Shown piece by piece: positions 15,536-62,468 of a stretch of DNA of 64,000 nt (positions are counted from its first letter, which is position 1; every line of letters begins with the position of its first letter). The notes under the pieces were generated by a model. That model saw only the letters and a list, made by a program, of their open reading frames with translations. It was not told the origin of the DNA and searched no databases. The position numbers were made by a program, and so were the translations under genes. The stretch spans positions 1-64,000 of the forward strand of contig JAUXUK010000106.1 in the NCBI GenBank assembly GCA_030680805.1. The letters run 5' to 3'. This DNA comes from Sulfuritalea sp. (GTDB lineage Bacteria; Pseudomonadota; Gammaproteobacteria; Burkholderiales; Rhodocyclaceae).

Positions 15536-15561
15536 CGCCGTGTCGCCAGCGCCGACTTTTT
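15536..15561 (-). repeat. dispersed 26-nt motif, copy 1 (intergenic)
   Basis: On the minus strand: AAAAAGTCGGCGCTGG, then CGACACGGCG. It is the only full-length copy outside a gene and overlaps the 35-nt repeat that precedes the terminator. Confidence 0.75.
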
Positions 15562-15581
15562 GCTTTGCAAACGAAACGCCC
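15547..15581. repeat. 35-nt repeat before terminator, copy 2
   Basis: Identical over 35 nt to 12982-13016 and likewise joined to a terminator stem. Confidence 0.85.
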
Positions 15582-15609
15582 TCGCAGAGCAATCTGCGGG
15601 GGCGTTTTT
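15575..15609 (+). terminator. Rho-independent terminator between convergent genes
   Basis: AACGCCCTCGCAGA pairs with TCTGCGGGGGCGTT (one G-T pair) around a 4-nt loop and is followed by a T run. It ends the sigma-factor cluster and faces the leftward cyclase gene. Confidence 0.85.
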
Positions 15610-15621
15610 CATGGCCGCCGC

Positions 15622-17352
15622 CTAGGCCGACAGGCTCTGCTCGAAGAAGCGCAGGGTGTTGCGCCCAGCCGCCTTCGACTGATACATGGCGAGGTCCGCC
15701 TGCTTCAGCAGTTCATCGACGCTGGTGCGCTGGTCCGCAAACAGCGTGACGCCGATGCTCGGCGTGCTGCTGTGCTCCTTGCCGAGCAGCTCGTAGACCG
15801 CATCGAGCGTGGCGAGGATTTTTCCCCCGACGGCTTCGGCCTGCCGCCTTGCCTCGGCCCCGTTTTCGCTGAGGTCGGTAAGCAGCACCACGAACTCGTC
15901 GCCACCGAGGCGCGCTGCCGTATCCACCTCGCGGATGCAACTGTTCAGCCGTTGCGCCACCTGCTGCAGCAGCAGGTCGCCATGGTCGTGACCGTGCGTG
16001 TCATTGAGTTTCTTGAAGTTGTCGAGGTCGATCAGCAGCAGCGCGCCGCGCCGTCCGCTGCGGGCGCAGGCCGCCAGCGCCCATTGCAGCCGATCGATCA
16101 GCAGCCTGCGGTTGGGCAACTGGGTGAGATCGTCGTAGAGCGCCAGGTGCCGGATCTGCTCCTCGGCCGCCTTGTGCTCGCTGAGGTCCATCATCGTCGC
16201 GACATAATTCGTCGTGGTCGAGCCATCGCCGCATTTGACGGTCGCGATCGTGAGCCATACCGGATGGATTTCGCCGCTCTTGCGACGATTCCAGATCTCT
16301 CCCTGCCATGATCCGGTGCGATGAATGCTCTCCCACATCGCCGCATAGAATGCGGCGTCATGGCGTCCGGACTTGAGCAGGCCCGGCGTCAGCCCGATGA
16401 CCGCATCCGCGGCGTAGCCGGTCAGCACCGAGAAAGCCTGATTCACCCGCTGGATCACGCAATCCGCGTCGGTGACCATGATGCCGACACTGGCCTCGAA
16501 CGCCGCGGCGGCTATCTGCAGCTGTGCTTCCGCGAGCTTGCGTTCGGTAACATCGTGAGCAACGACGACCACCCGCGCCACCCGGCCTTCGCTGTCCCGG
16601 ATCACCCCGCCCACTGATTCCATCTGCCGGATGCTGCCGTCCGCCAGATGGAAGCGGTATTCGCTGCGCTGGCCGATCCCGCTTCTGACGGTTTCCTTGA
16701 AGGCGGCGATGATGCGCGGCCGGTCTTCATCATGGACCTCGGCGAACGAATCCGTGCCGATCAGGTTCTCCGTAGCGCCGAAAAGCTTCTTGTAGGAAGG
16801 GCTGTTGTAGATGCGGCGCCCTTCCAGATCGAGCACCGCAATGAAGTCGCCGAGATTCTCAGCGATCAGGCGGAAAAACCTTTCCTGCTCGCGCAAGGCC
16901 GTTTCGGCCGTCTTGCGCGCGGCGATGTCGGTCAGCACGAGCAGCAGCAACAGCGGCACGCCGTCCCTGAACAGCCGAAGCCCATCCATCTGCGCGAAGA
17001 ACGGCGATCCGTCCGCGTGCAGCAGCGTGATTTCCAGGGTCAATGGCCCATCGCGGCAGGCCAGAGCGGAAAGATGCGCGCTCAGCAACGCATGGTCCGC
17101 AGGTGCCACGAATCGCGAAAAAGGCGTCGCCACCATTTCTTCGCGGGCCAGCCCGAGCAGCGCAACACCGGCGCGATTCACATCGGTGATCGCACCCTGC
17201 CCGGTCACCGCAAAGCAGGCGCTGGGAGCGAACTCGAAGAACTCGCCATGGCGATCGCGCGACAAGGCTGCGGCCGTCACGGGATGCGATGCCTCGTCCA
17301 GTTCCTTTTCCAGTTGAACCTTGCGAGCCTGATCGTCCGGCCTCAACTCCAT
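15622..17352 (-). CDS. diguanylate cyclase with three PAS domains
   Basis: A 576-residue soluble protein without membrane spans. It has three PAS-like segments (roughly residues 35-150, 155-275 and 280-400) and a C-terminal GGDEF domain. The active site AARLGGDEFVVLL is intact and a product-inhibition site REVD stands five residues before it, so it is probably an active, feedback-controlled cyclic di-GMP synthase. The sensed signal is unknown. It overlaps the preceding small gene by 10 nt. Confidence 0.92.
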   Translation of the reverse strand: MELRPDDQARKVQLEKELDEASHPVTAAALSRDRHGEFFEFAPSACFAVTGQGAITDVNRAGVALLGLAREEMVATPFSRFVAPADHALLSAHLSALACRDGPLTLEITLLHADGSPFFAQMDGLRLFRDGVPLLLLLVLTDIAARKTAETALREQERFFRLIAENLGDFIAVLDLEGRRIYNSPSYKKLFGATENLIGTDSFAEVHDEDRPRIIAAFKETVRSGIGQRSEYRFHLADGSIRQMESVGGVIRDSEGRVARVVVVAHDVTERKLAEAQLQIAAAAFEASVGIMVTDADCVIQRVNQAFSVLTGYAADAVIGLTPGLLKSGRHDAAFYAAMWESIHRTGSWQGEIWNRRKSGEIHPVWLTIATVKCGDGSTTTNYVATMMDLSEHKAAEEQIRHLALYDDLTQLPNRRLLIDRLQWALAACARSGRRGALLLIDLDNFKKLNDTHGHDHGDLLLQQVAQRLNSCIREVDTAARLGGDEFVVLLTDLSENGAEARRQAEAVGGKILATLDAVYELLGKEHSSTPSIGVTLFADQRTSVDELLKQADLAMYQSKAAGRNTLRFFEQSLSA

Positions 17353-17624
17353 CGGAGTGACGATGCAAACGCCGGGCTGCCACCTGGACGGCCGGCCACA
17401 GCGGACAGTACGTTCGGATTCCCTGTCATCGATCCAGCCCCCTGATTGGCGTAGGCCCAGTTGAGATGGGCGACACGCAACGCGACCAGTTGCCGTTGCG
17501 CATCCGCATCACCGCCGGAAGCCTTGCCAAGAAGCTCCTGAAAAAACGCTTCGCTCGCACGGTCCATTTCCGCCGGTGAGGTTGATAGCGGCAGACCGAC
17601 GATTTCATTCAGTCGAGGAATCAT
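17343..17624 (-). CDS. hypothetical protein coupled to diguanylate cyclase
   Basis: A 93-residue protein starting MIPRLNEIVGLPLSTSPAEM with a strong GGAGGGG site just upstream. It is helical and polar, without signal peptide or membrane span, and I do not recognise a family. Its 3' end overlaps the cyclase start by 10 nt, so the two are probably co-translated. Confidence 0.6.
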   Translation of the reverse strand: MIPRLNEIVGLPLSTSPAEMDRASEAFFQELLGKASGGDADAQRQLVALRVAHLNWAYANQGAGSMTGNPNVLSAVAGRPGGSPAFASSLRWS

Positions 17625-17679
17625 ACACCCCTCCCCTGTCTGCGGAGCCGGCATGGAATCCCGCGCGAATCCGGCGCTG

Positions 17680-18075
17680 CTAGCTGGCGGCCTTCGGCGC
17701 ACGGCGTGGCTTGATGACTTCGACCTTTGCCAATGTCTTGTTCAGTTGGACGTCGTCCAGCCCCCCGAGCAGCAGCAGACCAGCCCGCAACAGCTCGCTT
17801 CTGCGGACGCTGGCGCCGGAGAGCATCAGGCGCGTCTTCAATGCGCCCAATTGGGCGTACTCGGCTTCCGTGATCGTGTAGCGGCGGGAGACCGGCTTGG
17901 GCTTCTTCTGCTTCTGGCCGTTGGATTTGGAAGGTGCCGCGACCAGGGACTTTGCCGCGGGTTTTGCGGCAACGGCTCTGGAAAGCCTTACGCGTCTGGC
18001 CGCGGTCGGGGTTTTCGATTCGGCGGCAGTGGGCACCAGTTTCTTCGTACGCGCCTGGACTTTGGCTATTGGCAT
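17680..18075 (-). CDS. Lys/Ala-rich protein with ribbon-helix-helix-like C-terminus
   Basis: A 131-residue basic protein. Residues 1-65 are low-complexity and rich in Lys, Ala and Pro (RVRLSRAVAAKPAAKSLVAA). Residues 66-105 (YTITEAEYAQLGALKTRL, RRSELLRAGLLLL) look like a short ribbon-helix-helix DNA-binding fold. A nucleoid-associated or regulatory role is inference. The N-terminal tail resembles that of the HU protein at 61458-61823. Confidence 0.6.
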   Translation of the reverse strand: MPIAKVQARTKKLVPTAAESKTPTAARRVRLSRAVAAKPAAKSLVAAPSKSNGQKQKKPKPVSRRYTITEAEYAQLGALKTRLMLSGASVRRSELLRAGLLLLGGLDDVQLNKTLAKVEVIKPRRAPKAAS

Positions 18076-18319
18076 TCAATATCTCTCCGTCGTGGTCGGC
18101 GCGGACGCCGAAGGGTTTCCGGAAACATTTTCCGGAAGGGCTCGAACTGCCGGACACGGAACGGCTGCACAGCCGCCATGAAAGACCGAAAGCCGATCGC
18201 ACCCTAAGTTATTCTATGCATGGCATGCAGGATGCAAATACCCGCGGACAGGTATTCGGGCTACCGACTTGGGGGTATTTTCGGGTGAACCGGACGAAGA
18301 AGCCCTATCTGAGAACGGT

Positions 18320-18964
18320 TCAGGGCAGGATCAGGCCGGTGCGAATTGCATATTTCGTCAGTTCAACCACGTTGTGCAACTGAAGTTTCCGCATGAGATT
18401 GCGCCGGTGCACGTCGACCGTGCTCGGCGATATGTGCAATTCGGCGGCAATGTACGGTGCGGTCTTGCCGTCGGCCAGCAAGGTCGCCACCTGAAGCTCA
18501 CGCCGCGACAGCGGATTCTCGTCCGGATCGGCGGAACGGCTGCGCCGGTTGCGCAGGCTGTCGGTGACCAGTGCGGTGACCTGCGGGCAGAGGTAGCTGG
18601 CCCCGTCCATCAGGCTGAGAATCCCCCGCTTCAGTTCGGAGCCCGCTGCCGATTTGACGATGTAGCCGCGGGCGCCGACGTCGAGCATCTGCTGGACGAT
18701 GCGACGATCGAGGTAGGTGGACAAGGCCAGCACCTTGATTTCCGGGTGCTTCGCCCGCAGCCGTCGCGCGGTTTCGATGCCGGATATCCCCGGCAGCGCA
18801 ACATCCATCACCACCACGTCGGGCAATAGCTCCCCCGCGAGGCGCAATGCCGTCTCGCCATCGCCGACTGTCGCCACCACCTTGAAACCCTTGTCCTGCT
18901 CCAGCACTGACTGCAGGGCGTCGCGCACCATGGTGTGGTCATCGACAAGCATTATTTGGATCAT
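18320..18964 (-). CDS. NarL/FixJ-family response regulator
   Basis: A 214-residue two-component regulator. The receiver domain (residues 1-120) has the acidic pair in MLVDDHTM, the phospho-acceptor in VVVMDVALPG and the lysine in GYIVKSAAGS. The LuxR-type helix-turn-helix (residues ~150-210) reads LSRRELQVATLLADGKT and HISPSTVDVHRRNLMRKLQL. The start ATG 18964 has an AGGAGA site 7 nt upstream, inside the 3' end of the kinase gene, which shows translational coupling. Confidence 0.94.
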   Translation of the reverse strand: MIQIMLVDDHTMVRDALQSVLEQDKGFKVVATVGDGETALRLAGELLPDVVVMDVALPGISGIETARRLRAKHPEIKVLALSTYLDRRIVQQMLDVGARGYIVKSAAGSELKRGILSLMDGASYLCPQVTALVTDSLRNRRSRSADPDENPLSRRELQVATLLADGKTAPYIAAELHISPSTVDVHRRNLMRKLQLHNVVELTKYAIRTGLILP

Positions 18965-20627
18965 CGCAGATCTCCTTTCCCTCAATGATGCGGGGCACGC
19001 TCAGGGTGACCGTGGTGCCGTTGCCGGGGCTGCTGTCGATATCGACCTCGCCACCGAGGTTGATCATCCGCTCGTGGATCGAGCGCAGCCCGAAACTGCC
19101 GTGCCCATGCCCGGCGCCGATGTGTTCTGCCGGTTCGAATCCCTTTCCGGCATCGCTCACCACAAGGACAAGGCGCTCGTGGTGGCACAGGCAGGTGAGG
19201 CTGGCTTCCTTCACCCCGGCATGCTTGGCGGCGTTGATCAACAGTTCGCGCGCCGCGCGATAGAGCACCGCCTGCACCTCATCGACCAGGCGCTTGCCGC
19301 ACTCGCCGACATCGACATGCACCTTGAGCCCGAAAGAGCGCCCTGTTTCCTCACCCAGCCATTCCAGTGCCGGCCCGAGACCAAGCGTGTTCAGGATCGG
19401 CGGACTCAGTTGCTGGGTGATGCTGCGCGCCGCCCGGTCGGCCTGTTCCACCAGGTCCACGACCTGCCCGAGCGCGGCTTGCGGCAGGTCGTCCGGCAGC
19501 GACGTGAGCTTGATCTTGATCACCGCCAGCAACTGGCCCAGGTTGTCGTGCAGGTCCTCCGCCAGCTTGCGTCGCTCGCGCTCTTCGAACATGGTCAGTT
19601 GCGCGGACACTCGGCGTAGTTCCCTGGTGCGCTCGACCACCCGTTTATCCAGGCTCGCGGCCAGCAGCGCCAGATTTTCCTCGGCCTGCCGGCGCCGGCT
19701 GATGTCGCGATCGACGCCGCGGTAGCCGATCATCCTTCCGGCCGCATCGCGAATCGGCGTCCCGTTGCTCAGCGTGTCATGGCGCCCCCCGATCGAATCG
19801 AGGACGATGTTTTCCAGATCGCGGAAGGATTCCTCGCGCATGACGATCGCCGCAAACGCCGCGCCGACACGCAGCGCCTCATCGGGCGGCATCAAGTCGA
19901 AGGCCGTCCTGCCGATGATGTCTTCCGGCGCATAACCGAGCAGTACCCGAACGCTCTCCGAGGCGTAGGTATAGCGCCCCGCCAGATCCACCTCCCAGAT
20001 CCAGTCGGCGGAAATATCGGCCACGTCGCGAAAGCGTCGTTCGGATTCGCGCAGTGCCTGCTCGATGCGCTTGTACCCGGTCACATCGACCACGACCGCG
20101 CGGCATTCCTGCCGGTCGGGTGACAGTGTTGCGGTGATCTGTACTGTCTGCGGCGCCAGCCCGGCTATCGCCAGTTCCAGTTCGCAGTTCTGCGCTGCCT
20201 CGCCCGCGAATGCGCCTTGCAGGAAGGCCTTGAATCGCGGGCGGTCGGCCGCCGCGACGAAGGCGGAAAAGCGCCGGCCGGCCAGCCGGTCGCGTTCCTG
20301 TCCGAGCAGGCGCGCGCCGGTCAGGTTGAGCCGGGCAATCGCCCCGTCGCGGTCCAGGCTGAAGAAACCCGCCGGGGAAAAATCATGGAAATCGGCGAAA
20401 CGCTCCAGAGCCGCCTCGATCTCGGATTGCGAGCGGCGCAATTCCTCGCTCTGCAACTCCAGTTCGATCTGGTGCGCCTGCAGTTCATGCAGCAGGTGCC
20501 GCGTATCCGCCGCGTCAAGCTGAATCGCACCGGGCGAAGGCTTCCCGGGGCGCAGCAGCTCTTCGGCGCGGCGCCGAAGTTCGGCGCCATCGTTCGGCGG
20601 CGGCGCCCGAGGCGGGTCACGCTTCAC
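18939..20627 (-). CDS. PAS-domain sensor histidine kinase (NarX-like HisKA_3)
   Basis: A 562-residue soluble kinase. It has an N-terminal helical stretch (HLLHELQAHQIELELQSEEL), two PAS domains (about 70-185 and 200-320), a HisKA_3 dimerisation domain with the phospho-histidine in ERRKLAEDLHDNLGQLL, and an ATP-binding domain ending in HGSFGLRSIHERMINLGG. It overlaps the response-regulator start by 26 nt and the CheB-CheR gene by 4 nt, so the three genes form one coupled signalling unit. Confidence 0.94.
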   Translation of the reverse strand: MKRDPPRAPPPNDGAELRRRAEELLRPGKPSPGAIQLDAADTRHLLHELQAHQIELELQSEELRRSQSEIEAALERFADFHDFSPAGFFSLDRDGAIARLNLTGARLLGQERDRLAGRRFSAFVAAADRPRFKAFLQGAFAGEAAQNCELELAIAGLAPQTVQITATLSPDRQECRAVVVDVTGYKRIEQALRESERRFRDVADISADWIWEVDLAGRYTYASESVRVLLGYAPEDIIGRTAFDLMPPDEALRVGAAFAAIVMREESFRDLENIVLDSIGGRHDTLSNGTPIRDAAGRMIGYRGVDRDISRRRQAEENLALLAASLDKRVVERTRELRRVSAQLTMFEERERRKLAEDLHDNLGQLLAVIKIKLTSLPDDLPQAALGQVVDLVEQADRAARSITQQLSPPILNTLGLGPALEWLGEETGRSFGLKVHVDVGECGKRLVDEVQAVLYRAARELLINAAKHAGVKEASLTCLCHHERLVLVVSDAGKGFEPAEHIGAGHGHGSFGLRSIHERMINLGGEVDIDSSPGNGTTVTLSVPRIIEGKEICDDPNNACR

Positions 20628-23395: not shown

Positions 23396-23670
23396 GGACT
23401 TCTCTTTCCTCGCTTGGCCCTGGGGAAATTCATCGCGTTTGGCAGCCGCGACCACCCACTCCGGCTGCATATCCACTATACCCCGCTAGCGCCCGGGCTG
23501 AGGACATTGCTTGCGGCAAGGCCCGTCGGAAGTTTGAATGCCATCCTGCGGGCAACGGCAGGAAAGGCGCGACACGCAATGAGTGCCCGAGGGCAAGGGT
23601 GCGATGTCCCGCTTCCTCCCGGTCGCCTGACAACTCGACCGGGACGCCGCGATCGACCCCGGAACAAGCG

Positions 23671-23790
23671 TCAGGAAACGGCGATCTTGGTCGCCGCACT
23701 GCCCTGCTTCTTGGGCAGCACCGCCTCCAGCACGCCATCCACCGACAGCTTGATGTCCTCTTTCCTGACGCCCGGAATTTCCGCCTTGAT
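23671..23790 (-). pseudogene. Hsp20 small heat-shock protein remnant with internal deletion
   Basis: The minus strand reads IKAEIPGVRKEDIKLSVDG joined directly to VLEAVLPKKQGSAATKIAVS and a stop. The first part is the start of an alpha-crystallin domain and the second is its last strand plus the C-terminal tail. About 40 central residues that normally lie between them are missing, as is the N-terminal arm. No in-frame start is present before an upstream TGA. I read this as a decayed hsp20 gene. The stretch 23477-23670 holds nothing else I can support. Confidence 0.75.
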
Positions 23791-23792
23791 GC

Positions 23793-24017
23793 TTACTGGC
23801 TGTTGCGCAGGATCCCTTCGACATCAGTCTCGGCTTGCAGCCAGTCCGACATCTCGTTGCCTGATGCAAAGCCACGCTGTTCGGCACGGTAGTAGGCGGC
23901 CTCGGCGATCATTTGTTCGCGCGGGCAATCCTGGGAATCGGCCGCAACCAATTCAGGCACTGGTCGCGATGAGCCGTTGCCTTTGGACTTCCTGGGTAGT
24001 TCGTTTTGGGTTTTCAT
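23793..24017 (-). CDS. DUF2934 domain protein
   Basis: A 74-residue protein with the DUF2934 pattern in its second half (EQMIAEAAYYRAEQRGFASG, then NEMSDWLQAETDV). The start ATG 24017 (MKTQNELPRKSKGNG) has a clear GAGGAG site 6 nt upstream; the longer frame to 24191 has none. The domain's function is unknown; it often occurs near stress genes, which fits the Hsp20 remnant 2 nt downstream. Confidence 0.8.
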   Translation of the reverse strand: MKTQNELPRKSKGNGSSRPVPELVAADSQDCPREQMIAEAAYYRAEQRGFASGNEMSDWLQAETDVEGILRNSQ

Positions 24018-24109
24018 CTTGGTCTCCTCATGGGTTTCAGGTTTTGCGGCGGAATCCGCCGGCAATGAAAAGCAATAATCTCCTTCAAGAATCTGCAAAC
24101 TCGACTGCA

Positions 24110-26740: not shown

Positions 26741-28083
26741 AACTCCTGCCGCGCACGCTGCTGTGGCGCACTTTTCTTCTGGTTGCCTTGCTGATGCTGC
26801 TCTCCGTCGCGGCATGGTTCTTCATCTTCACCACCTACGAGCGCGAGCCGCGCGCACGGCAACTGGCGCAAACCCTGGTCAGCGTCGCCAACCTGACCCG
26901 CGCCGCCTTGATCTCGGCCCGTCCCGAGGCGCGCCGTGACCTGTTGCGCGAATTGTCGGACCGCGAAGGCATCCACATCTATCCGGCCGATGCGGCGGAT
27001 CGTGTCGAAGACCTCCCCAACCGGGCCTTTCTGCGCCGGGTCGAGGAGCTGGTCAGGGAACAGCTCGGACCGAGGACCCGGCTGACGCTGGAGCGGGAAG
27101 GCGAACGGGCCCTGTTCGTCAATTTCCGGATCGACGACAGCGACGAAGGTGACTACTGGCTGGCCCTGCCTCGTGAGCGCATTGATCGCGTGATTCCGCT
27201 GAGCTGGCTGGGCTGGGGCGTGGCCGCGCTGCTGCTGTCGCTGCTCGGCGCCTGGTTCATCGTGTTCCGCATTACCCGCCCGCTCAAGGCCTTGCAGCAG
27301 GCGGCGCGAAAAGTCGGCGCTGGCGAGACGGCGGATCGCCTCGATGAAGGCGGCCCCACCGAACTGGCGACCGTCGCCCGGGCCTTCAACCAGATGAGCG
27401 CCGATCTGGCCCAGCTCGACCAGGACCGCGCCCTGATCCTGGCCGGCATTTCGCACGATCTGCGCACGCCGCTGACCCGCCTGCGCATGGGCATCGAAAT
27501 GGCCGCCGACGATGGCCTGCGCGAAGGCATGACGGCCGACATCGAGGAGATGGACAAGACCATCGGCCAGTTCCTCGACTTCGCCCGCTCGGAAAGCGGC
27601 GAAGCCCTGCAGGAGGTCGATGTCGCCGCCCTGCTGGAAGAACTCGCCGCGCAATACCGGCGGCGGGGATTCGCTGTCGAACTCGCCGTCTCGCCAGCGC
27701 CGAGTTTTCGCGGCGCGATGTCTGTGCGGCCGCAGGCCCTGCGCCGCGCCATCAGCAATCTGATCGACAACGCGCTGCGCTACGCCGGCACCGAATCGCC
27801 CGTGGAACTGGCGCTGAGCGCCGCTGCCGGCGAGTTCAGCATCGAGGTGCGCGATAGCGGCCCCGGCATTCCGCCTGAAGATGCCGAACGCGTGAAGCGC
27901 CCCTTCGCCCGGCTCGAATCCGCCCGCACCAACGCGGCAGGTGCCGGCCTCGGCCTGGCCATCGTCGACCGCATCGCGCGCTCCCACAACGGACGCCTCG
28001 AACTGCTGGCGCGCGAAGGCGGCGGGCTGATTGCCCGCCTTGTGCTGCTCCCTGCCAACCCGCCATCCACCACCGCCTCATGA
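26737..28083 (+). CDS. envZ: EnvZ-like sensor histidine kinase
   Basis: A 448-residue membrane kinase with a GTG start overlapping ompR. It has two membrane spans (residues ~10-32 and ~158-178) around a periplasmic sensor, a HAMP domain (FRITRPLKALQQAARKVGAG), the phospho-histidine in AGISHDLRTPLTRLRMGIEM, and ATP-binding boxes (SNLIDNALRYAG, VRDSGPGIP, GAGLGLAIVDRIA). Two copies of the dispersed 26-nt motif lie inside the gene in opposite orientation, at 27308 and 27684. It overlaps the haemoglobin gene by 4 nt. Confidence 0.93.
   Translation: MKLLPRTLLWRTFLLVALLMLLSVAAWFFIFTTYEREPRARQLAQTLVSVANLTRAALISARPEARRDLLRELSDREGIHIYPADAADRVEDLPNRAFLRRVEELVREQLGPRTRLTLEREGERALFVNFRIDDSDEGDYWLALPRERIDRVIPLSWLGWGVAALLLSLLGAWFIVFRITRPLKALQQAARKVGAGETADRLDEGGPTELATVARAFNQMSADLAQLDQDRALILAGISHDLRTPLTRLRMGIEMAADDGLREGMTADIEEMDKTIGQFLDFARSESGEALQEVDVAALLEELAAQYRRRGFAVELAVSPAPSFRGAMSVRPQALRRAISNLIDNALRYAGTESPVELALSAAAGEFSIEVRDSGPGIPPEDAERVKRPFARLESARTNAAGAGLGLAIVDRIARSHNGRLELLAREGGGLIARLVLLPANPPSTTAS
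27308..27333 (+). repeat. dispersed 26-nt motif, copy 2 (in envZ)
   Basis: GAAAAGTCGGCGCTGG then CGAGACGGCG. Here it encodes KVGAGETA in the HAMP region. Confidence 0.75.
27684..27709 (-). repeat. dispersed 26-nt motif, copy 3 (in envZ, inverted)
   Basis: The reverse complement reads GAAAACTCGGCGCTGG then CGAGACGGCG, one mismatch from copy 2. It is antisense to the gene, which encodes VSPAPSF here. Confidence 0.75.
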
Positions 28084-39624: not shown

Positions 39625-41003
39625 ATGAACCCTGCCACCGCGACTCGTCCGCCGGCCGTTGCCGGCATGTTCTATCCGGGTGATCCCGCCAGCCTGCGCG
39701 ATGACCTCCTGACCTGCCTCACCGCCGTTGCCTGCCCGCGAAGCGGAAGCCCAGGCACGCAAGGCGGAGCAGCGCCGAGTTTTCATAGCGGCCTGCTCAA
39801 GGCCATCATCGTGCCGCATGCCGGCTACATTTATTCCGGCGGCACCGCGGGCCACGCTTATGCTCTGCTGGCACCGCTGGCAGCCCGCATCCGCCGCGTG
39901 GTCCTGCTCGGGCCTTGCCACCGGGTGTCCGTGCGCGGCCTGGCGGCGCCCAGCGCCACGGCTTTCGCCACGCCGCTGGGCAGCATCGCTCTCGACCGTG
40001 CCGCGCTCGATGCGCTGGCCGATCTGCCGCAAGTCGTCGTCAGCGACGCCGCCCATGCCGAGGAACATTCCCTGGAGGTACAACTGCCCTTCCTGCAAAC
40101 CGTGCTCGGCGAATTTGAACTGGTGCCGCTGGCGGTAGGCGATGCCAGCGCCGAAGAAGTGGCCGCAGTGCTGGATCGCCTCTGGGGCGGGCCGGAGACC
40201 CTGATCGTGATCAGCTCCGATCTCTCGCACTTTCACAGTTACCGCGAAGCGCAATCCATCGACAACGCCACGGTGGCGCACATCCTGGCCCTGGACCCGC
40301 TCACCAGCTTCGACCAGGCCTGCGGCGCGCTGCCGATCAACGGCCTGCTCGCCGTGGGGCGGCGGCGTGGCCTCAGGATCGAGCGCGTCGCGCAATGCAA
40401 TTCGGGCGATACGGCCGGCGACAAGGGGCGCGTGGTCGGCTATGCCTCCTTTGCGCTGTTCGAACCGGAGGCCGAGTCCGACACGCTCGGCCCTGCCCTG
40501 CTGGTACGTGCCCGCAATGCCATCGCGGCCAGGCTCAAACAACCGACCCAGGCCGAACCCGACCATCCCGCGTTGTCCCAGCCCGGCGCCACCTTCGTCA
40601 CGCTGATGCAAGACGGACAACTGCGCGGCTGCATCGGTTCGCTCGAAGCGCATCGTGCGCTGGATGACGATGTGCGCGCCAACGCCGTCGCTGCGGCCTT
40701 CAGCGATCCGCGCTTCCCGCCGCTGACGCTGGCCGAGTTGCCGCACACCCGCGTCGAAGTCTCGCTGCTCAGCGCGCCACAGCCGATGAAGTTCAGCAGC
40801 GAAGCCGACGCCCTGCGCCAACTGCGGCCTCATGTCGACGGCGTCATCCTGATCGCGGGCCAGCGCAGGAGCACCTTCCTGCCGCAAGTCTGGGAACAAT
40901 TGCCCGAGCCGCGCCTGTTCATGGCCCACCTCAAGCAGAAGGCCGGCCTGCCGGCCGACTGGTGGTCTTCCGAAGTAGAACTGCAGCGCTACGAGGTGCA
41001 GAA

Positions 41004-46380: not shown

Positions 46381-49815
<3,435 letters not shown>

Positions 49816-50122
49816 GTAGAAAAGTTATGCCTACGGCGAAGCCGGAGACGGTATCCCTTGCGGACGGCGCTGGTGAGACGGCGATGGGTGGGTTCAGGCG
49901 AAGCAATTGCGGTTGGTGATACGGGATGACGGGCTTTCGGCTTGGATTCAACCGGTGGATGCAACACACTAGAAACTGCGTAAGCAGAAGGAGTGTTGCA
50001 TCCACCGGTTGAATCCAAGAAACTTCACCAGCCATACACCTCACGCGATTGGGCTGAGTAGCGGGAATCGCTGGTGCTGCCCATGATATGCTGCACGGCT
50101 AAATATAGGGAGCACCCCGACG
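49816..50122. other. intergenic repeat region between mfd and hsdM
   Basis: 307 nt without a supportable gene. It holds a partial copy of the dispersed motif (CGGCGCTGGTGAGACGGCG, 49865-49883) and the perfect inverted repeat at 49941-50019. A minus-strand frame covers it but looks spurious. It marks the left border of the restriction island. Confidence 0.6.
49941..50019. repeat. perfect 27-bp inverted repeat with 25-nt spacer
   Basis: 49941-49967 (CTTGGATTCAACCGG, then TGGATGCAACAC) is the exact reverse complement of 49993-50019. No T run follows, so it is not a simple terminator. It may be a miniature mobile element or paired insertion-sequence ends beside the restriction island. Confidence 0.85.
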
Positions 50123-52429
50123 GTGGATCAGGCAACGCACAACAAAATCGTATCCTTCATCTGGGGCATCGCCGATGATGTCCTGCGCGACCTATTCAAA
50201 CGCGGCAAGTACCCTGACGTAATTCTGCCAATGTGCGTCATCCGACGCATGGACGCGGTGCTTGAGCCGACCAAGCATCAAGTTCTCGCCACAAAAAGAA
50301 TGCTCGATGAGGCAGGGATAACCGAACAGCGCGCCGCTCTGTGCGATGCTGCGGGCCAGGCTTTCTACAACACCTCGAAGTTCACGCTGCGCGACCTCAA
50401 GTCGCGCGGCAGTCAGCAGCAACTGCTGGCCGACTTCGAGGACTACCTCAACGGCTTCTCGCCCAACGTCCAGGACATCCTCGACAACTTCAAGTTCCGC
50501 AACCAGCTCCAGACGCTGTCGAAGGCCGATGCCATCGGCACGCTGATCAGCAAGTTCCTCGACCCCGACATTGACCTCTCGCCGGCCGGCATTGACAACC
50601 ACTCGATGGGTACCGTCTTCGAGGAACTGGTCCGCAAGTTCAACGAGGAGAACAACGAGGAGGCGGGCGAACACTGGACACCACGCGATGCCGTGCGCCT
50701 GATGGCGAACCTCGTCTTCCTGCCCATCGAGGCCGAGATCAAGTCCGGCATGTATTTGCTGTACGACTGTGCCTGCGGCACGGGCGGCATGCTGACAGTG
50801 GCGGAAGAGACGCTCATCGGTATCGCCGACAAGCGCAGGCAGCAGGTCAAATGCCTGCTCTACGGCCAGGAAATCAATCCGGAGACCTACGCCGTCTGCA
50901 AAGCGGACATGCTGCTCAAGGGAGAAGGCGAAAGCGCCGACCACATTGTCGGCGGCGCGGAATGGTCCACGCTCGCGCACGACGCCTTCCCCGCCCAGGA
51001 GTTTGACTTCATGCTCGCCAACCCGCCTTACGGGAAGAGCTGGAAGAAGGATCTCGAGGTGATGGGCGGCAAGGATGGCATGCGCGACCCGCGCTTCAAG
51101 GTCATGCACCAGGGCGAGGAGCTGTCGCTCGTCACGCGCTCCAGCGACGGGCAGATGCTCTTCCTTGCCAACATGGCCTCGAAGATGAACGGGAAGTCTG
51201 CGCTTGGCAGCCGCATCGCCGAGGTCCACAACGGTTCGTCGCTCTTCACCGGCGACGCCGGCCAGGGCGAGAGCAACATCCGCCGCTGGCTGATCGAGAA
51301 CGACTGGCTGGAGGCCATCGTCGCGCTGCCGCTCAACCTCTTCTACAACACCGGCATTGCCACCTACGTCTGGGTGCTGTCCAACAGGAAGCCCGCGCAT
51401 CGCAAGGGCCGGGTCCAGCTTATCGACGCCAGCCAGTGGTTCAAGCCGCTGCGCAAGAACCTCGGCAAGAAGAACTGCGAGCTCTCGCCCGAGGACATCG
51501 AGCGCATCAGCCGCAGCTTCCTCGACTTCAAGGAAACGCCCGAGTCGAAGATCTTCCCCAACGCCGCCTTCGGCTACTGGAAGGTCACGGTCGAGCGCCC
51601 GCTGCGCCTGCACAGCCAGCTCACGCTCAAGGCCATCGAGACGCTGCGTTTCACCTCGGGTGACGAGGACATCCGCGCGGTGCTCTACGACGAGTTCGGC
51701 GACGACCTCTTCACCCGCTTCGCCAAGATTTCCGCCGCGCTGGAAAAGCGCCTGGCCGACTGGGGCAACGACGAGGACGAAGGCGACGACGAAGAGGGCG
51801 CCAGCGCCAGGAAGGGCCTGCCCGACAAGAAGCGCAAGAAGTTGCTCGACCCCAAGACCTGGGAGCGCGACGGCCGCCTGGTCGAAGTCGCCACCCAGCT
51901 GCGCGCGGCGCTGGGCGACGCGCTCTTCGAGGATCACAACCTGTTCCGCGACCGCGTGGACGCGGCGCTCGACAAGGCCGGCATCAAGCTCGCCGCCGCC
52001 GACCTGAAGCAGATCCTCAAGGCCGTGAGCTGGCGCGTCGAGACCGCCCCGCCCGTCATCGCCAAGCTGCACAAGCCCGGCAAGGCCAAGGCCGACCCGC
52101 TGTGCGGCCTGTTCGAGGCGACCGTGGACGGCAAGTCCGCCGTCGTCGAGTACGAGCCGGACGCCGACCTGCGCGACACCGAGCAAGTGCCGCTGCTCGA
52201 AGACGGCGGCATCGAGGCGTTCATCCGCCGCGAGGTGCTGCCCTACACGCCGGATGCGTGGATCAAGGAAGGCGCCACCAGGATCGGCTACGAGGTCAGC
52301 TTCACCCGGCACTTCTACAAACCGCAGCCGCTGCGCACGCTCGAAGAAATCAGCGCCGACATCCTCGCCATCGAGAAAGAGTCCGAAGGCTTGCTGCACG
52401 CAATAGTCGGCGCTGGCGGGACGGCATGA
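50123..52429 (+). CDS. hsdM: type I restriction-modification methyltransferase subunit
   Basis: A 768-residue N6-adenine methyltransferase with a GTG start. The N-terminal HsdM domain (KIVSFIWGIADDVLRDLFKR) is followed by the SAM motif YDCACGTGGMLTVAEE and the catalytic NPPYGKSW. It is longer than the common ~520 residues, with an acidic insert (NDEDEGDDEEG) and a helical C-terminal extension. It overlaps hsdS by 4 nt. The last codons include a partial copy of the dispersed motif (52402-52426). Confidence 0.95.
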   Translation: MDQATHNKIVSFIWGIADDVLRDLFKRGKYPDVILPMCVIRRMDAVLEPTKHQVLATKRMLDEAGITEQRAALCDAAGQAFYNTSKFTLRDLKSRGSQQQLLADFEDYLNGFSPNVQDILDNFKFRNQLQTLSKADAIGTLISKFLDPDIDLSPAGIDNHSMGTVFEELVRKFNEENNEEAGEHWTPRDAVRLMANLVFLPIEAEIKSGMYLLYDCACGTGGMLTVAEETLIGIADKRRQQVKCLLYGQEINPETYAVCKADMLLKGEGESADHIVGGAEWSTLAHDAFPAQEFDFMLANPPYGKSWKKDLEVMGGKDGMRDPRFKVMHQGEELSLVTRSSDGQMLFLANMASKMNGKSALGSRIAEVHNGSSLFTGDAGQGESNIRRWLIENDWLEAIVALPLNLFYNTGIATYVWVLSNRKPAHRKGRVQLIDASQWFKPLRKNLGKKNCELSPEDIERISRSFLDFKETPESKIFPNAAFGYWKVTVERPLRLHSQLTLKAIETLRFTSGDEDIRAVLYDEFGDDLFTRFAKISAALEKRLADWGNDEDEGDDEEGASARKGLPDKKRKKLLDPKTWERDGRLVEVATQLRAALGDALFEDHNLFRDRVDAALDKAGIKLAAADLKQILKAVSWRVETAPPVIAKLHKPGKAKADPLCGLFEATVDGKSAVVEYEPDADLRDTEQVPLLEDGGIEAFIRREVLPYTPDAWIKEGATRIGYEVSFTRHFYKPQPLRTLEEISADILAIEKESEGLLHAIVGAGGTA

Positions 52430-55295: not shown

Positions 55296-55318
55296 CTTGG
55301 TTGATGGGTCGTTGATTG
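55296..55318 (+). repeat. 23-bp direct repeat, copy 1
   Basis: CTTGGTTGATGGGTCGTTG plus ATTG, repeated exactly at 55384-55406. The two copies flank a short AT-rich stretch (55347-55376) upstream of hsdR. Confidence 0.8.
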
Positions 55319-55383
55319 CGGTGAGGCTGTCGGCGTGCTTGGGGTAATAATCTCACAATAAAACAACAAGTTGAGAGTTTTGG

Positions 55384-55406
55384 CTTGGTTGATGGGTCGT
55401 TGATTG
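55384..55406 (+). repeat. 23-bp direct repeat, copy 2
   Basis: Second copy of the repeat at 55296-55318, ending 11 nt before the hsdR start. Confidence 0.8.
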
Positions 55407-55417
55407 GGAGGGTTTGG

Positions 55418-58168: not shown

Positions 58169-58408
58169 AGAGGCCCTTTGGCGCAGTCTTCGAGGGCGCC
58201 GAAAGGCAGTGAATCTCGAAAACTGAATGGCTGCAATAAACCTTCAACAGCCATATGACGCCGGCAACCGATTGGACTGATTAGGGTCGAAAGTTCGCAT
58301 TCGCCTGAGGTGAGTTGGTCGTCCGCTTCGGCCGATAACCCGCCATCCAGCCCTCCTCAATCGATCCAAAGCGCGCCCCGGCCATCCGCAATTTCCCAAG
58401 CTCAAGCC

Positions 58409-58446
58409 TTGACCCACCGCTGTTGGTCATCTAGAATGACCAACAG
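58409..58446 (+). promoter_or_regulatory. toxin-antitoxin promoter with overlapping palindromic operator
   Basis: TTGACC (58409-58414), a 17-nt spacer and TAGAAT (58432-58437) form a near-consensus promoter. A perfect inverted repeat, CTGTTGGTCAT and ATGACCAACAG with a 5-nt centre (58420-58446), covers the -10 box. This is the expected site for autorepression by the antitoxin complex. Confidence 0.8.
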
Positions 58447-58460
58447 ACAAGGAGTCCGCC

Positions 58461-58691
58461 ATGCAGCAATTCAACATCGCCGAAGCCAAGGCCCATCTCT
58501 CCGAACTGGTGCAAAAAGCCATGATGGGCGAGGAAATCGTCATCGCCCGCGACAACAAGCCGTTGGCAATGCTGGTGCCCATCCAGCGTCCGGCGGGCAA
58601 ACGCATTCCCGGTTCGGGCAAGGGTCAAATCCTCTTCATGGCGGATAACTTCGACGCGATCCCCGAGGGATTCGAGGACTACACGGGGTGA
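58461..58691 (+). CDS. Phd/YefM-family antitoxin
   Basis: A 76-residue antitoxin. The N-terminal DNA-binding part (MQQFNIAEAKAHLSELVQKA, EEIVIARDNKPLAMLVP) is typical of Phd/YefM; the C-terminal ~30 residues should wrap the toxin. An AGGAG site precedes the ATG. It overlaps the toxin gene by 4 nt (GTGA) and is preceded by a palindrome over the promoter. Confidence 0.92.
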   Translation: MQQFNIAEAKAHLSELVQKAMMGEEIVIARDNKPLAMLVPIQRPAGKRIPGSGKGQILFMADNFDAIPEGFEDYTG

Positions 58692-59074
58692 TTGCGCTGC
58701 TCGACACCAATGCCTTCCTGCATTGGGTGGAGGGCGACGACAAGCTGTCAGCCAAGGCCAAGTCCTGTATCGCCAACCCGGACAACGAAATCCTTGTCAG
58801 TGTCGTGGTGGCGTGGGAACTGGCGATCAAGTCCGGCCAGGGCGGCATCAAGCTGGCGTTGCCGGTCGGCCGTTATGTGGCGAGCCATATCGAAGCAAAC
58901 GGTTTTCGCCTGCTCGGCATTGAACTCGACGATGTGGCCGCCATCGAAACCCTGCCCCTGCATCATCGCGATCCCTTCGACCGCCTGCTGGTGGCGCAGG
59001 CAAAAAACCGCAAGCTGCCCGTGGTCAGTTCCGACCGGGCGTTTTCCGACTATGGCGTCAAACGTATCTGGTAA
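58688..59074 (+). CDS. vapC: VapC-type PIN-domain toxin
   Basis: A 128-residue PIN ribonuclease with a GTG start overlapping the antitoxin stop. The acidic residues expected of the active site are in ALLDTNAFLHW (residue 6), AWELAIKSG, RDPFDRLLVAQA and VSSDRAF. It would cleave RNA, often tRNA, when freed from the antitoxin. It ends only 5 nt before the DAHP synthase gene, so the pair may have been inserted just upstream of a biosynthetic gene. Confidence 0.92.
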   Translation: MIALLDTNAFLHWVEGDDKLSAKAKSCIANPDNEILVSVVVAWELAIKSGQGGIKLALPVGRYVASHIEANGFRLLGIELDDVAAIETLPLHHRDPFDRLLVAQAKNRKLPVVSSDRAFSDYGVKRIW

Positions 59075-59079
59075 CCGAC

Positions 59080-60156
59080 ATGCAACAAACTGAAAACCTC
59101 AATATCGAAGCCTTCGAGCCGATGCCCACGCCCGAAGAAATCCATGCTCGCGTGCCACTGTCGGAAGCCGCCGCTGAGTCGGTGCTGGCGGGACGGCGCA
59201 CGCTGGAACGCATCCTCGACGGCAGCGATCCGCGCATTTTCGTGGTGGTCGGGCCCTGCTCGATCCACGACCCGGTCGCCGGCCTCGATTACGCGCGGCG
59301 CCTGAAGAAGCTGGCCGACGAAGTGTCCGGAACCATGGTGCTGGTGATGCGGGTGTATTTCGAGAAGCCGCGCACCGCGACCGGCTGGAAGGGCTACATC
59401 AACGACCCGCGCATGGACGATTCCTTCCATATCGAGGAAGGCATGCAGAAAGCACGCGAGTTTCTCCTCGCCGTGAGTGAAATCGGCCTGCCGGCGGCGA
59501 CCGAGGCGCTCGACCCGATCGGGCCGCAATATCTGGGCGACCTGATTGCGTGGGTGGCGATCGGCGCACGCACTTCCGAATCGCAAACCCACCGCGAAAT
59601 GTCGTCCGGCCTGTCGGCCCCCGTAGGTTTCAAGAACGGCACCGACGGCTCGCTGGACGCCGCGGTCAATGCCATCATTTCGGCGGGCAGCCCGCACAGC
59701 TTCCTCGGCATCAACATGCAGGGCCGTTCCTGCGTGGTGCGCACCGCCGGCAACCGCTACGGCCACCTGGTGCTGCGCGGCGGCGGCGGACGGCCGAACT
59801 ACGACACGGTCAGCGTCGCGCTGGCCGAAGACGCACTGGCCAAGGCCAAGCTGCCGCACAACATCGTGGTCGATTGCTCCCATGCCAACAGCTACAAGAA
59901 GCCGGAGTTGCAGCCGCTTGTCATGCACGACTGCATCAATCAGGTCGTCGACCAGCGCAAGGCGGGACACCGCTCCATCGTCGGCCTGATGATCGAAAGC
60001 TTCATCGAAGCCGGCAACCAGCCCATCCCTGCCGATCTTTCGCAACTGAAGTACGGCTGTTCGGTCACGGATGCCTGCGTCGACTGGTTGACCACTGAAA
60101 GAATGCTGCGCGAGGCCGATGCCGCGCTGCGCGGCGCGATCACCAACCCTGCCTGA
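59080..60156 (+). CDS. aroG: 3-deoxy-7-phosphoheptulonate synthase (class I)
   Basis: A 358-residue DAHP synthase, the first step of the shikimate pathway. Visible motifs are VVVGPCSIHDPVAGLDYARR, RVYFEKPRTATGWKGYINDP, ALDPIGPQYLGDLIAWVAIG, VDCSHANSYKKPE and LMIESFIEAGNQ. The length and N-terminal extension fit the AroF/G/H group; which amino acid inhibits it cannot be told. It follows the toxin gene by 5 nt without an obvious promoter of its own. Confidence 0.95.
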   Translation: MQQTENLNIEAFEPMPTPEEIHARVPLSEAAAESVLAGRRTLERILDGSDPRIFVVVGPCSIHDPVAGLDYARRLKKLADEVSGTMVLVMRVYFEKPRTATGWKGYINDPRMDDSFHIEEGMQKAREFLLAVSEIGLPAATEALDPIGPQYLGDLIAWVAIGARTSESQTHREMSSGLSAPVGFKNGTDGSLDAAVNAIISAGSPHSFLGINMQGRSCVVRTAGNRYGHLVLRGGGGRPNYDTVSVALAEDALAKAKLPHNIVVDCSHANSYKKPELQPLVMHDCINQVVDQRKAGHRSIVGLMIESFIEAGNQPIPADLSQLKYGCSVTDACVDWLTTERMLREADAALRGAITNPA

Positions 60157-60164
60157 GAATTTCC

Positions 60165-61391
60165 ATGAGCCTGATTCGAGCCTTTCGTGGCCTGCGCCCT
60201 GCCCCTGGCCAGGCGGGAGCGATCGCCGCCCCGCCCTATGATGTGCTGTCGAGCGACGAAGCAAGGGCGCGCGCAACGGGCAAGCCGTGGTCCTTCCTGC
60301 ATATCTCCAAGCCGGAAATCGACCTGCCGCGCGACACGGACCCCTATGCGCCGGCGGTGTATGCCAAGGCCGCCGAGAACCTGCGGAAAATGTTGGCTGC
60401 CGGCGTGCTGGTGCGCGATGACGCGCCCTGCTACTACGCCTATCGCCTGACCATGGGCGCGCATGTGCAGACCGGCCTCGTCGCCGCGGCCAGTGTCGCC
60501 GATTACGACAGCAACCGCATCCGCAAGCACGAGTTCACGCGGCCCGACAAGGAAGACGACCGCGTGCACCAGATCGAGGCGCTCAATGCGCAGACCGGCC
60601 CGGTGCTGCTGGCCTATCCGGGTTCCGCAACGGCCGACGCGCTGATCGATGCCATCGCGCAGGGAACTCCGGCCGCTGACGTCACCGCCGACGACGGTAT
60701 CCGCCACCAGATATGGGTACTGACGGATGCCGCGCGGATTACCGCGATCACGCAAACCTTCGATGCCATGACCGCGCTCTACATCGCCGACGGCCATCAC
60801 CGTTCCGCTGCCGCCTCACGCGTCGCCGCCGCGCGCCGCACGCCGGGGCAGGAACAGTCGGCAGGCTACTTCCTGTCGGTGATCTTCCCCCACCACCAGA
60901 TGAAGATCATGGACTACAACCGCGTCGTCAAGGATCTCAACGGCCTTGAAAACTCGGCGCTGGTGACACGGCTCGCTGCGGCCTTCACGGTCGAGGACAG
61001 CGCGCAGCGCGTGCATCCGGCCCACCCCGGCGAGTTCGGCATGTACCTCGCCGGACGCTGGCACAAGCTGACGATCAAGCCCGACCTGATTCCCGCCGAT
61101 CCGGTGGCGAGCCTCGATGTGTCGCTGCTTTCCGAACACGTGCTGGGCCCGCTGTTGGGCATCGCCGACCTGCGCCGCGACAAACGCATCGATTTCGTCG
61201 GCGGTATCCGCGGTCTGGCCGAACTGGAAAAGCGCGTCGACTCGGGCGAGATGGCAGTGGCATTTGCGCTGCACCCGACGCGCATGGACCAACTGATGGC
61301 GGTGGCCGACAGCAACAACGTGATGCCGCCGAAGTCGACCTGGTTCGAACCCAAGCTGGCCGATGGGCTGGTTTCCCACGTGCTGGATTGA
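60165..61391 (+). CDS. DUF1015 family protein
   Basis: A 408-residue protein of the DUF1015 family (RAFRGLRPAPGQAGAIAAPP, YDVLSSDEARA, ADGHHRSAAASRVAAARR). The fold and function are not established to my knowledge; the DGHHR motif suggests a catalytic or metal site. It begins 8 nt after aroG, probably co-transcribed. A copy of the dispersed motif lies inside at 60948, read as ENSALVTR. Confidence 0.88.
   Translation: MSLIRAFRGLRPAPGQAGAIAAPPYDVLSSDEARARATGKPWSFLHISKPEIDLPRDTDPYAPAVYAKAAENLRKMLAAGVLVRDDAPCYYAYRLTMGAHVQTGLVAAASVADYDSNRIRKHEFTRPDKEDDRVHQIEALNAQTGPVLLAYPGSATADALIDAIAQGTPAADVTADDGIRHQIWVLTDAARITAITQTFDAMTALYIADGHHRSAAASRVAAARRTPGQEQSAGYFLSVIFPHHQMKIMDYNRVVKDLNGLENSALVTRLAAAFTVEDSAQRVHPAHPGEFGMYLAGRWHKLTIKPDLIPADPVASLDVSLLSEHVLGPLLGIADLRRDKRIDFVGGIRGLAELEKRVDSGEMAVAFALHPTRMDQLMAVADSNNVMPPKSTWFEPKLADGLVSHVLD
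60948..60973 (+). repeat. dispersed 26-nt motif, copy 5 (in DUF1015 gene)
   Basis: GAAAACTCGGCGCTGG then TGACACGGCT. The reading frame here differs by one base from copies 2 and 4. Confidence 0.7.
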
Positions 61392-61412
61392 GGGCTCGAC
61401 CAGCACCAAAGA

Positions 61413-61440
61413 AAAAGGGCAACCCGCGGGTTGCCCTTTT
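61413..61440. terminator. bidirectional Rho-independent terminator
   Basis: AAAAGGGCAACCC and GGGTTGCCCTTTT form a perfect 13-bp stem with a 2-nt centre between the convergent DUF1015 and HU genes. A and T runs on both sides serve both strands. Confidence 0.9.
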
Positions 61441-61457
61441 CAATGAAACTAAGCTGC

Positions 61458-61823
61458 TTACTTCTTCTTGGCGGCAGGCTTCTTGGCGGCAGCGGGTTTC
61501 TTCGCAGCCGGTGCCTTCTTTGCGGGAGCCTTCTTGGCCACCGGCTTCTTGCCGGCAACAGCGGCCTTGAGGCCAGCACCTGCGGAGAACTTCGGAACGG
61601 CCTTGGCGGCGATCTTCAGCACGGCGCCGGTCTTCGGATTCTTGCCGGTGCGCGCGGAACGCATCACGGACTTGAAGGTACCAAACCCGATCAGTGCAAC
61701 CGGATTGCCCTTCGAGATTACGGAGGTGATCACTTCGGTCAACGCATCGATGGCCTTGTTCACTGCGGCCTTGGAAAGTTCGGCACGTTCTGCTACTGCT
61801 TCGATCAGTTCGCTCTTGTTCAT
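61458..61823 (-). CDS. HU-family DNA-binding protein with histone-H1-like tail
   Basis: A 121-residue nucleoid protein. Residues 1-90 are a normal HU/IHF fold (MNKSELIEAVAERAELSKAA, GFGTFKSVMRSARTGKNPKT). Residues ~91-121 are a tail of Lys, Ala and Pro repeats (KKPVAKKAPAKKAPAAKK) resembling eukaryotic histone H1. Such HU variants are known in several betaproteobacteria and bind or compact DNA more strongly. It is a single gene between two terminator-type boundaries. Confidence 0.93.
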   Translation of the reverse strand: MNKSELIEAVAERAELSKAAVNKAIDALTEVITSVISKGNPVALIGFGTFKSVMRSARTGKNPKTGAVLKIAAKAVPKFSAGAGLKAAVAGKKPVAKKAPAKKAPAAKKPAAAKKPAAKKK

Positions 61824-61922
61824 TGAATTCCCCTTTGGTTGAAAAATCGTATTGTTCCACTAAATCCGTTCAAGTTGCAAGCCCCGCAAGCCTTGCCGCC
61901 AAATTTTCCGTGCGCGCTCCGC

Positions 61923-62468
61923 TCACAGCCCCTTCACCGCATACACCGCCGGCAGGTTGCGCCAGGCGCCCTTGACGTCCATGCCGTAGCCGAAGACGTA
62001 GCGATTCGGCAGGTGCACACCAACGAAATCCGCGGATATCGGTTTGGCGCGGCCCAGGTTCTTGTCGGCGAACACGGCGCTCAGTACTTCGGTAGCGCCT
62101 TGTGCCAGAAGGCGTTTGCGGATCTCGGCGAGGGTCACGCCTTCGTCGAGGATGTCATCCACCACCAGCACGACACGGCCCGCGACATCGGAGCGCGGCT
62201 CGACGATCCAGGCCAGCTGCCCGCCCGTGGTGACGTCGCCGTAGCGCGAAACATGCAGGTAGTCGAAATCCAGCGGGAAAATCAGTTGCGGCAGGAGCTG
62301 CCCGGTGAATACCACCGCGCCGCCCATGACGGCGAGTACCAGCGGGTTGGCGTCAGCCAGGCGCGCGGTGATTTCCGCAGCCACTCGCCGTACCGCCAGC
62401 GCCGAGTTTTCGGCCGAACACAGCAGATCGGCTTCGTCGAAGATTTTCTGTGCTTCCTGCGGGCTCAT
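61923..62468 (-). CDS. hpt: hypoxanthine-guanine phosphoribosyltransferase
   Basis: A 181-residue purine salvage enzyme. The PRPP-binding motif [18 protein letters not shown] is clear, with [16 protein letters not shown] and [11 protein letters not shown] for the pyrophosphate and flexible loops. It overlaps the galU stop by 4 nt. Its N-terminal coding part contains a copy of the dispersed motif (62386-62411), read as ENSALAVRR. Confidence 0.94.
62386..62411 (-). repeat. dispersed 26-nt motif, copy 6 (in hpt)
   Basis: On the minus strand GAAAACTCGGCGCTGG then CGGTACGGCG, in the sense direction of hpt. Confidence 0.7.

Follow-up and report, generated by a model that had tools for sequence, protein, structure and literature searches.

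A motif of 24-27 nt, AAAGTCGGCGCTGGCGRNACGGCGA, is repeated on both strands of a 64,000-nt stretch of a Sulfuritalea sp. genome (GenBank assembly GCA_030680805.1, contig JAUXUK010000106.1, positions 1 to 64,000; hereafter the window) and across the genome from which the window was taken. The repeat is genuine and, in one group of Rhodocyclaceae, constitutes a DNA site recognised across the genome. By comparison with known systems, it quite probably serves as a DNA uptake sequence with which a set of genera that includes Sulfuritalea, Sulfurisoma, Rugosibacter and others labels its own DNA for natural transformation. The observations behind this reading are the abundance of the motif, constraint on the DNA, the origin of copies in place, the lack of replication polarity, the absence from one region with conjugation genes, the dialects, and the presence of ComEC; from them we infer uptake itself, a receptor and the drive behind accumulation. 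A preliminary description of the window had offered either a short mobile repeat or a recognised DNA site. The second suggestion held, with uptake as the best fit, and the first did not.

The window was scanned with the 26-nt pattern of the preliminary description, allowing up to 3 mismatches. Seven copies were found, compared to none in 100 dinucleotide shuffles. All six copies first described were recovered at the same positions and strands, five of them exact and 15536-15561 (-) with one mismatch, and a site first described as partial (52402-52426) proved to be the seventh copy. An independent gene finder gave the same readings as before (KVGAGxTA twice, ENSALxxR twice, antisense once) and placed the 15536 copy between genes. 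Pfam likewise assigned the hosts to unrelated families (RisS-type sensor kinase, Mfd, DUF1015, phosphoribosyltransferase) and added HsdM at 52401. The seven copies, located by the pattern scan, with hosts from the gene finder and, for those in genes, Pfam, are:

15536-15561 (-), 1 mismatch, between two genes, immediately following a hairpin
27308-27333 (+), 0 mismatches, in the gene of a RisS-type sensor kinase (first called envZ), where it reads KVGAGETA
27684-27709 (-), 0 mismatches, antisense within the same sensor kinase gene
47396-47421 (+), 0 mismatches, in a variable Mfd linker loop, where it reads KVGAGDTA (also from the Mfd alignment)
52401-52426 (+), 3 mismatches, at the 3' end of an hsdM-like gene
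60948-60973 (+), 0 mismatches, read ENSALVTR in a DUF1015 gene
62386-62411 (-), 0 mismatches, read ENSALAVR in a phosphoribosyltransferase gene (first called hpt)

The source genome (G000; 3.14 Mb in 107 contigs, 86% complete) contains 408 copies, 191 forward and 217 reverse. The reversed-pattern control gave 0 on each strand, so the genome-wide count is far above background. The consensus logo of 72 copies in a 464-kb sample of this genome is RAAASTCGGCGCTGGCGRNACGGCGA, 27 nt long, with sharp borders, unconserved flanks and an information content of about 36 bits (31-36 bits across five genomes). Copies with 0, 1, 2, 3 and 4 mismatches to the 24-nt core numbered 37, 17, 14, 4 and 5, respectively, which is a peak and not a decaying tail.

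Genes were called with an in-house simple gene finder. In the 464-kb sample, 49 copies lie within genes, compared to a mean of 8.2 and a maximum of 18 in 100 synonymous-codon shuffles. Similarly, 400 kb of the relative G001 gave 35 in-gene copies against a mean of 3.1 and a maximum of 7. The motif is read in four of the six frames: 26 and 9 copies in two sense frames and 9 and 5 in two antisense frames of G000, with none in the other two, and 17 and 3 (sense) and 10 and 5 (antisense) in G001. Sense and antisense copies therefore number 35 vs. 14 in G000 and 20 vs. 15 in G001. The four encoded peptide patterns occur 20, 6, 13 and 4 times, and all 43 occurrences are encoded by motif DNA, even though its codons are otherwise uncommon (GCT accounts for 5% of Ala codons, AAA for 18% of Lys codons). 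The conserved entity is thus the DNA and not the peptide. Intergenic copies are enriched in both genomes, with 23 of 72 in G000, where 13% of the DNA is intergenic (P = 4e-5), and 28 of 65 in G001, where 17% is intergenic (P = 8e-7; two of the 65 overlap gene ends). Permissive sites are favoured: intergenic stretches, frames with tolerable peptides, and the variable Mfd loop.

All 31 genomes examined in the genus carry the motif, from 22 copies (G026) to 570 (G004). Among named genomes, Sulfurisoma sediminicola BSN1 has 237 copies, Rugosibacter sp. WOFB27 368, and Sulfuritalea sp. UWPOB_SULF1 554; a metagenome-assembled genome labelled Gammaproteobacteria has 511 and one labelled Thiobacillus 2. 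In a first sample of the family, any match was found in 51 of 101 genomes, and only a few were dense. With a dialect-tolerant pattern, at least 100 copies were present in 73 of 395 family genomes (counted by eye), all within nine of 68 genera. The 314 genomes of the other genera had at most 40 copies (G074) and next 24, with up to 17 in the reversed control (G315). G074 is read poorly by the tolerant pattern and gave 135 copies in a separate count; with the standard form, G074, G039 and their relatives had at first looked motif-poor, a dialect effect. Outside the family, where the standard form alone was sought, none of 386 genomes from 50 families of the order had more than 5 copies. A plasmid search with a 30-nt consensus returned 113 records with a best E of 0.1, which is chance-like. 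In motif-poor G085 (C66, C104), G084 (C50), G111 (C1, 1.46-1.50 Mb) and G051 (C12), the copies form small clusters spanning a few to 40 kb, which look as if they were islands from motif-rich donors.

The motif differs between genomes in a genome-wide manner. Iterated profiles built on genome samples, with 0.16-0.26 copies per kb in their own samples, gave four dialect forms among five genomes: AAAAgTCGGCGCTGGCGa.ACGGCGa in G000, AgAGTCGGCGCTGGCGa.ACGGCGa in G001, AAA.TCGGCGCTGgcgggACGGCAc in G108 (g19), AAAcTCGGCGCTGgCGgGGCGGCG in G281 (g19), and aAAAGTCAGTc.c.gcgg.ACGGCG, in which CTG is not kept, in G039 (g10). G074 (g45) has a fifth form, GTCGACGCTGG, and G269 gave 2 hits in 140 kb. We compared these forms with the sequence at one orthologous site, the Mfd linker loop. 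The loop of G074, AAAGTCGACGCTGGGGAGACGGCA, has 0 mismatches to the G074 form and 3 to the standard one, and that of G052 (g23, itself unprofiled), AGAGTCAGTCCCGGCGGGACGGCG, has 1 mismatch to the g10-type form and 5 to the standard. Weaker matches were found in G153, G212 and G048 (1 mismatch from the g19 form, 2-3 from the standard) and in G281 (3 from its own form, 4 from the standard), and the g19-type ending is also present in G129 and G165 (g46). Altogether, 11 of 21 Mfd loops match a form with up to 3 mismatches; the other 10 do not (five g10 genomes, both g66 genomes, G175, G111 and G269). A change of form across the genome together with substitution at the same site is as expected from a co-evolving reader of the DNA.

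We measured polarity and regional absence in the complete genome G001 (3.80 Mb), sampled as 40 stretches of 20 kb. Five consecutive stretches at about 1,900,001-2,000,000 of G001:C1 (L276, L383-L386) have 0 copies, compared to 114 in the 35 other stretches, one of which (970-990 kb) also has 0. The G+C content of the motif-free region is 0.55-0.59. Its first 60 kb encode TraU, TraG_N, TraH, TraI_2 and a TraD-like coupling protein (5 of 6 scanned proteins matched). Given this low G+C content and these Tra proteins, the region is probably an integrative conjugative element.

Of the 78 family genomes tested, 77 encode ComEC and 75 a pilin of the ComP_DUS family. In G000 the ComP-family pilin adjoins FimT (GspH) and PilW by Pfam, and a trio of ComP-like pilin, FimT-like pilin and PilW stands together in 16 of 19 genomes inspected by eye, motif-rich or motif-poor (it is incomplete in G269, G039 and G110). 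A search of solved structures with the G000 pilin returned 18 sequences of type IV pilins or related proteins; ComP was not among their names. Two ways to single out a receptor were dropped. Presence or absence is of no help, as ComEC and the ComP_DUS pilin are near-universal and the trio occurs in motif-rich and motif-poor genomes alike; a longer FimT is seen in some motif-rich genomes but not in G108.

We propose that the bipartite AAAGTC-N12-ACGGC(G) on extracellular DNA would be bound by a receptor at the cell surface, with a minor type IV pilin (ComP-like, FimT or other) as the likeliest candidate. Pilus retraction would be followed by single-strand import through ComEC, and homologous recombination would then swap the chromosomal allele. 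Because fragments bearing the motif would enter more often, the motif may build up in place at permissive sites, such as intergenic DNA and flexible protein loops, in frames whose peptides can be tolerated. If the preference of the receptor shifts, the copies would follow and a dialect would arise.

Several findings weigh against uptake. ComEC and ComP-family pilins are present also in genera without the motif and so do not discriminate. Motif-bearing G074 (98% complete) and G165 (91%) have no ComP_DUS match, and that pilin family is therefore not established as the receptor. G281 is motif-rich (604 copies with the tolerant pattern), yet its comEC is interrupted. Conversely, eight of the 81 genomes of the nine motif genera have fewer than 100 copies (G292 58, G026 56, G334 31, G181 27, G248 11, G205 10, G269 5 and G112 5), and three of these, G026, G269 and G181, have full-length comEC frames. 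The motif-free region of G001 is a single case, extended to 100 kb post hoc because its first stretch had no copies. Virus-labelled IMG/VR contigs carry the motif in at least 120 stretches, with 0.061 further copies per kb compared to 0.133 in genome loci; these copies were perhaps brought in by host flanks. One such contig, L169, has five copies 316-385 bp apart at 883-2238, one per integron-like cassette. Exact inverted pairs are rare, with one each in 6 of 31 genus genomes and none in the source genome. Another repeat is more over-represented as 11-mers in the source-genome sample. In length, the core exceeds those of DUS and USS, the known uptake signals, two- to threefold, and no transformation experiment on these bacteria was found in the literature searched.

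Some of these genomes show further features. In G281 the comEC interruption is at the stretch HLMSIS..VTMV, and the pieces are on two contigs (L415 1480-3048 and L416 513-3593). A serine recombinase gene (Resolvase, Recombinase, Zn_ribbon_recom) adjoins the N-terminal piece, and an integrated element in comEC is therefore likely. We discarded the idea that the motif was lost in G281 along with comEC, since the low count was a dialect effect. In the L169 array, attC-like GCCTAAC...GTTAGGC was seen by eye. The more over-represented repeat is GAGGCGCAGAGGCGCAGA-like and forms short clusters in L294, L298, L300, L303 and L304 of the source genome.

The main alternative is that the motif is the site of a chromosomal DNA-binding protein (a nucleoid organiser, condensin loader or global regulator) with which it co-evolves. 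Hundreds of sites on both strands without polarity would suit such a protein, constraint on the DNA and dialects are also expected from an internal binding protein, and foreign DNA would likewise be free of sites. However, the motif is patchy within one family and near background in G269, G205 and G248, members of motif genera, a distribution that an essential chromosome function would hardly permit. The spacing of copies in G000 is near random (coefficient of variation 0.89, 62 intervals). Moreover, chromosomal binding alone leaves the origin and persistence of copies inside conserved genes unexplained. We therefore regard this alternative as unlikely.

A very short mobile repeat, of the repetitive extragenic palindromic (REP) or miniature inverted-repeat transposable element (MITE) kind, copied into genes and intergenic DNA, was the other branch of the preliminary description. 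Dispersal on both strands, some inverted pairs, the copies in the integron-like array, and the constant position of the insert in some composite copies would suit it. To judge insertion, we aligned 182 coding sites with other sequences, keeping pairs that cover the site by 8 residues on each side and dropping same-locus pairs. This left 174 alignments from 85 of the sites, some counted in both directions. The target has the motif in 82, lacks it without a gap in 44, and lacks it with a gap in 48. Net gap lengths in the last group range from -17 to +26 residues, with 0 at -8 and 1 at -9. The Mfd site alone supplies 28 of the alignments (12 with motif, 3 ungapped and 13 gapped without it). Since insertion of 26 or 27 nt would give a clear mode at -8 or -9, the alignments indicate that copies arise in place and not by such insertion. 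The Mfd linker loop itself varies in length. Among relatives from motif genera, 12 of 16 carry the motif there (up to 3 mismatches); among those from other genera, 0 of 12 do. The sharp borders with unconserved flanks, the location of 49 of the 72 sampled copies within predicted genes, the genome-wide dialects, and the differing dialect forms at one orthologous loop also argue against a mobile repeat, which we judge very improbable.

A polarity site for recombination or segregation, like Chi or the FtsK orienting polar sequences (KOPS), had also been considered, as the motif is abundant, short and chromosomal. With replichores taken from GC skew, and leaving out 13 copies near the origin, terminus or a shift region, G001 has 48 leading and 53 lagging copies (P = 0.69). 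The motif shows no orientation bias relative to replication and is patchy across one family. Chi and KOPS are far shorter than about 26 nt. This explanation is hardly credible. Finally, conserved protein segments or chance from codon usage, to which the frequent KVGAGxTA reading and the copies common to some orthologues might point, are refuted, as the preliminary description had argued for protein homology, by the four frames on two strands, the intergenic copies, the excess over every synonymous shuffle (49 vs. at most 18, 35 vs. at most 7) and the fixed rare codons.

A 2025 paper (PMC12616744) names Neisseriaceae and Pasteurellaceae as the only families known with uptake signals. Traits similar to those of our motif are reported for their DNA uptake sequences (DUS) and uptake signal sequences (USS) in PMC2397512, PMC3630211 and PMC12616744; PMC7371117 is a further source for comparison. 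Like the DUS of Neisseriaceae, whose receptor is ComP, the motif has hundreds of copies on both strands, permissive positions and distinct dialects. A ComP-family pilin is likewise encoded in most Rhodocyclaceae genomes tested. DUS are absent from newly acquired DNA; our motif is missing from one region that was probably acquired, yet virus-labelled contigs and an integron-like array carry it. Inverted pairs, which in known uptake sequences are frequent and act as terminators, occur here as some head-to-head pairs at gene ends (two in 400 kb of G001). Unlike DUS, which are up to about 13 nt with an invariant CTG core, it has 24-27 nt with the bipartite core AAAGTC-N12-ACGGC, another sequence in another family, and 0.16-0.26 copies per kb, uptake here being inferred. 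Inverted pairs are rare in our motif, whereas PMC3630211 describes them as numerous in DUS genomes. The 27-nt logo and the g10 dialect without CTG exclude it from the DUS sequence family.

The USS of Pasteurellaceae, with ComN/PpdA as proposed receptor, is likewise an abundant discontinuous motif with types within the family and an orientation bias in reading frames; one orientation is favoured there according to PMC2346458. PMC12616744 describes USS as having a 9-nt core together with weaker AT-rich segments, the whole spanning up to 32 nt. In contrast, both halves of the Rhodocyclaceae motif are sharply conserved, the second is G+C-rich, and there is no common sequence. The motif was therefore not placed in the USS sequence family, as its logo lacks a 9-nt core containing the GCGG inner core with AT-rich outer parts. 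REP sequences, bacterial interspersed mosaic elements and MITEs are also dispersed short repeats, sometimes in inverted pairs, but our motif has no insertion footprint, lies mostly in genes in the sample, and has genome-wide dialects. With Chi and KOPS it shares frequent, recognised chromosomal sites; unlike them, it is longer, patchy in one family and without replication polarity.

The motif thus probably represents a third uptake-sequence system, one that evolved independently in environmental Rhodocyclaceae. It would have the longest sharply conserved core of such signals (about 24-27 nt, 31-36 bits, bipartite) and several dialects in one family. No report of the motif or of a Rhodocyclaceae uptake sequence was found in a search that missed most subscription papers and preprints. 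Discrimination between self and foreign DNA at uptake has DUS and USS as its standard examples. A further example, from environmental bacteria, would make it possible to test whether the same drive yields such signals repeatedly, and would add a new dialect set for receptor co-evolution. Recombination and competence could then be read directly from metagenome-assembled genomes, and the receptor would read roughly two and a half turns of DNA. The motif may also mark foreign islands in these genomes.

Looser scans of the window gave weaker matches. Of the partial copies first described, 12982-12996 and 49865-49883 were recovered with 5 and 6 mismatches, respectively, and 39770-39784 is only a half copy:

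59173-59198 (+), weak copy with 4 mismatches to the 26-mer, within a DAHP synthase gene, where it reads ESVLAGRR (looser scan, gene finder, Pfam)
18848 (-), weak copy, 5 mismatches (looser pattern scan)
21771 (-), weak copy, 6 mismatches (looser pattern scan)
12971-12996 (-), partial copy, first half only, 5 mismatches, with a hairpin flank resembling that of 15536 (looser scan)
39770-39784 (-), half copy GAAAACTCGGCGCTG, with over 6 mismatches when all 26 nt are compared
49820-49883 (+), composite copy in which about 40 nt separate AAAGT from the rest of the motif; 49858-49883 (+) has 6 mismatches (looser scan, repeat search)

In the composite form, AAAAGTTATGC...GGTATCCC...GGACGGCGCTGG, about 24-40 nt interrupt the motif after AAAGT. 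This form occurs at 6 places in the sequence searched:

window 49820-49883 (+)
about L269 5105-5164 (-)
about L280 2845-2904 (-)
about L282 17194-17253 (+)
about L073 6371-6430 (+)
about L112 5473-5532 (-), where the motif is barely recognisable

A further composite is at the Mfd loop of G003. Possibly the insert is a small element with the motif as its target. At 12971-13040 (-) and 15536-15605 (-), a similar hairpin flank, CCCCGYRGATTKCTCYRCGRGGGCGTTTCGTTTGCAAAGC, stands just before the motif, which is truncated in one of the two; the shared flank is perhaps a duplicated terminator. In G001, L392 813-15569 (+) is a single open frame of 4918 aa with short threonine/alanine-rich repeats (e.g. 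TTAEIAALTT) and no motif copy.

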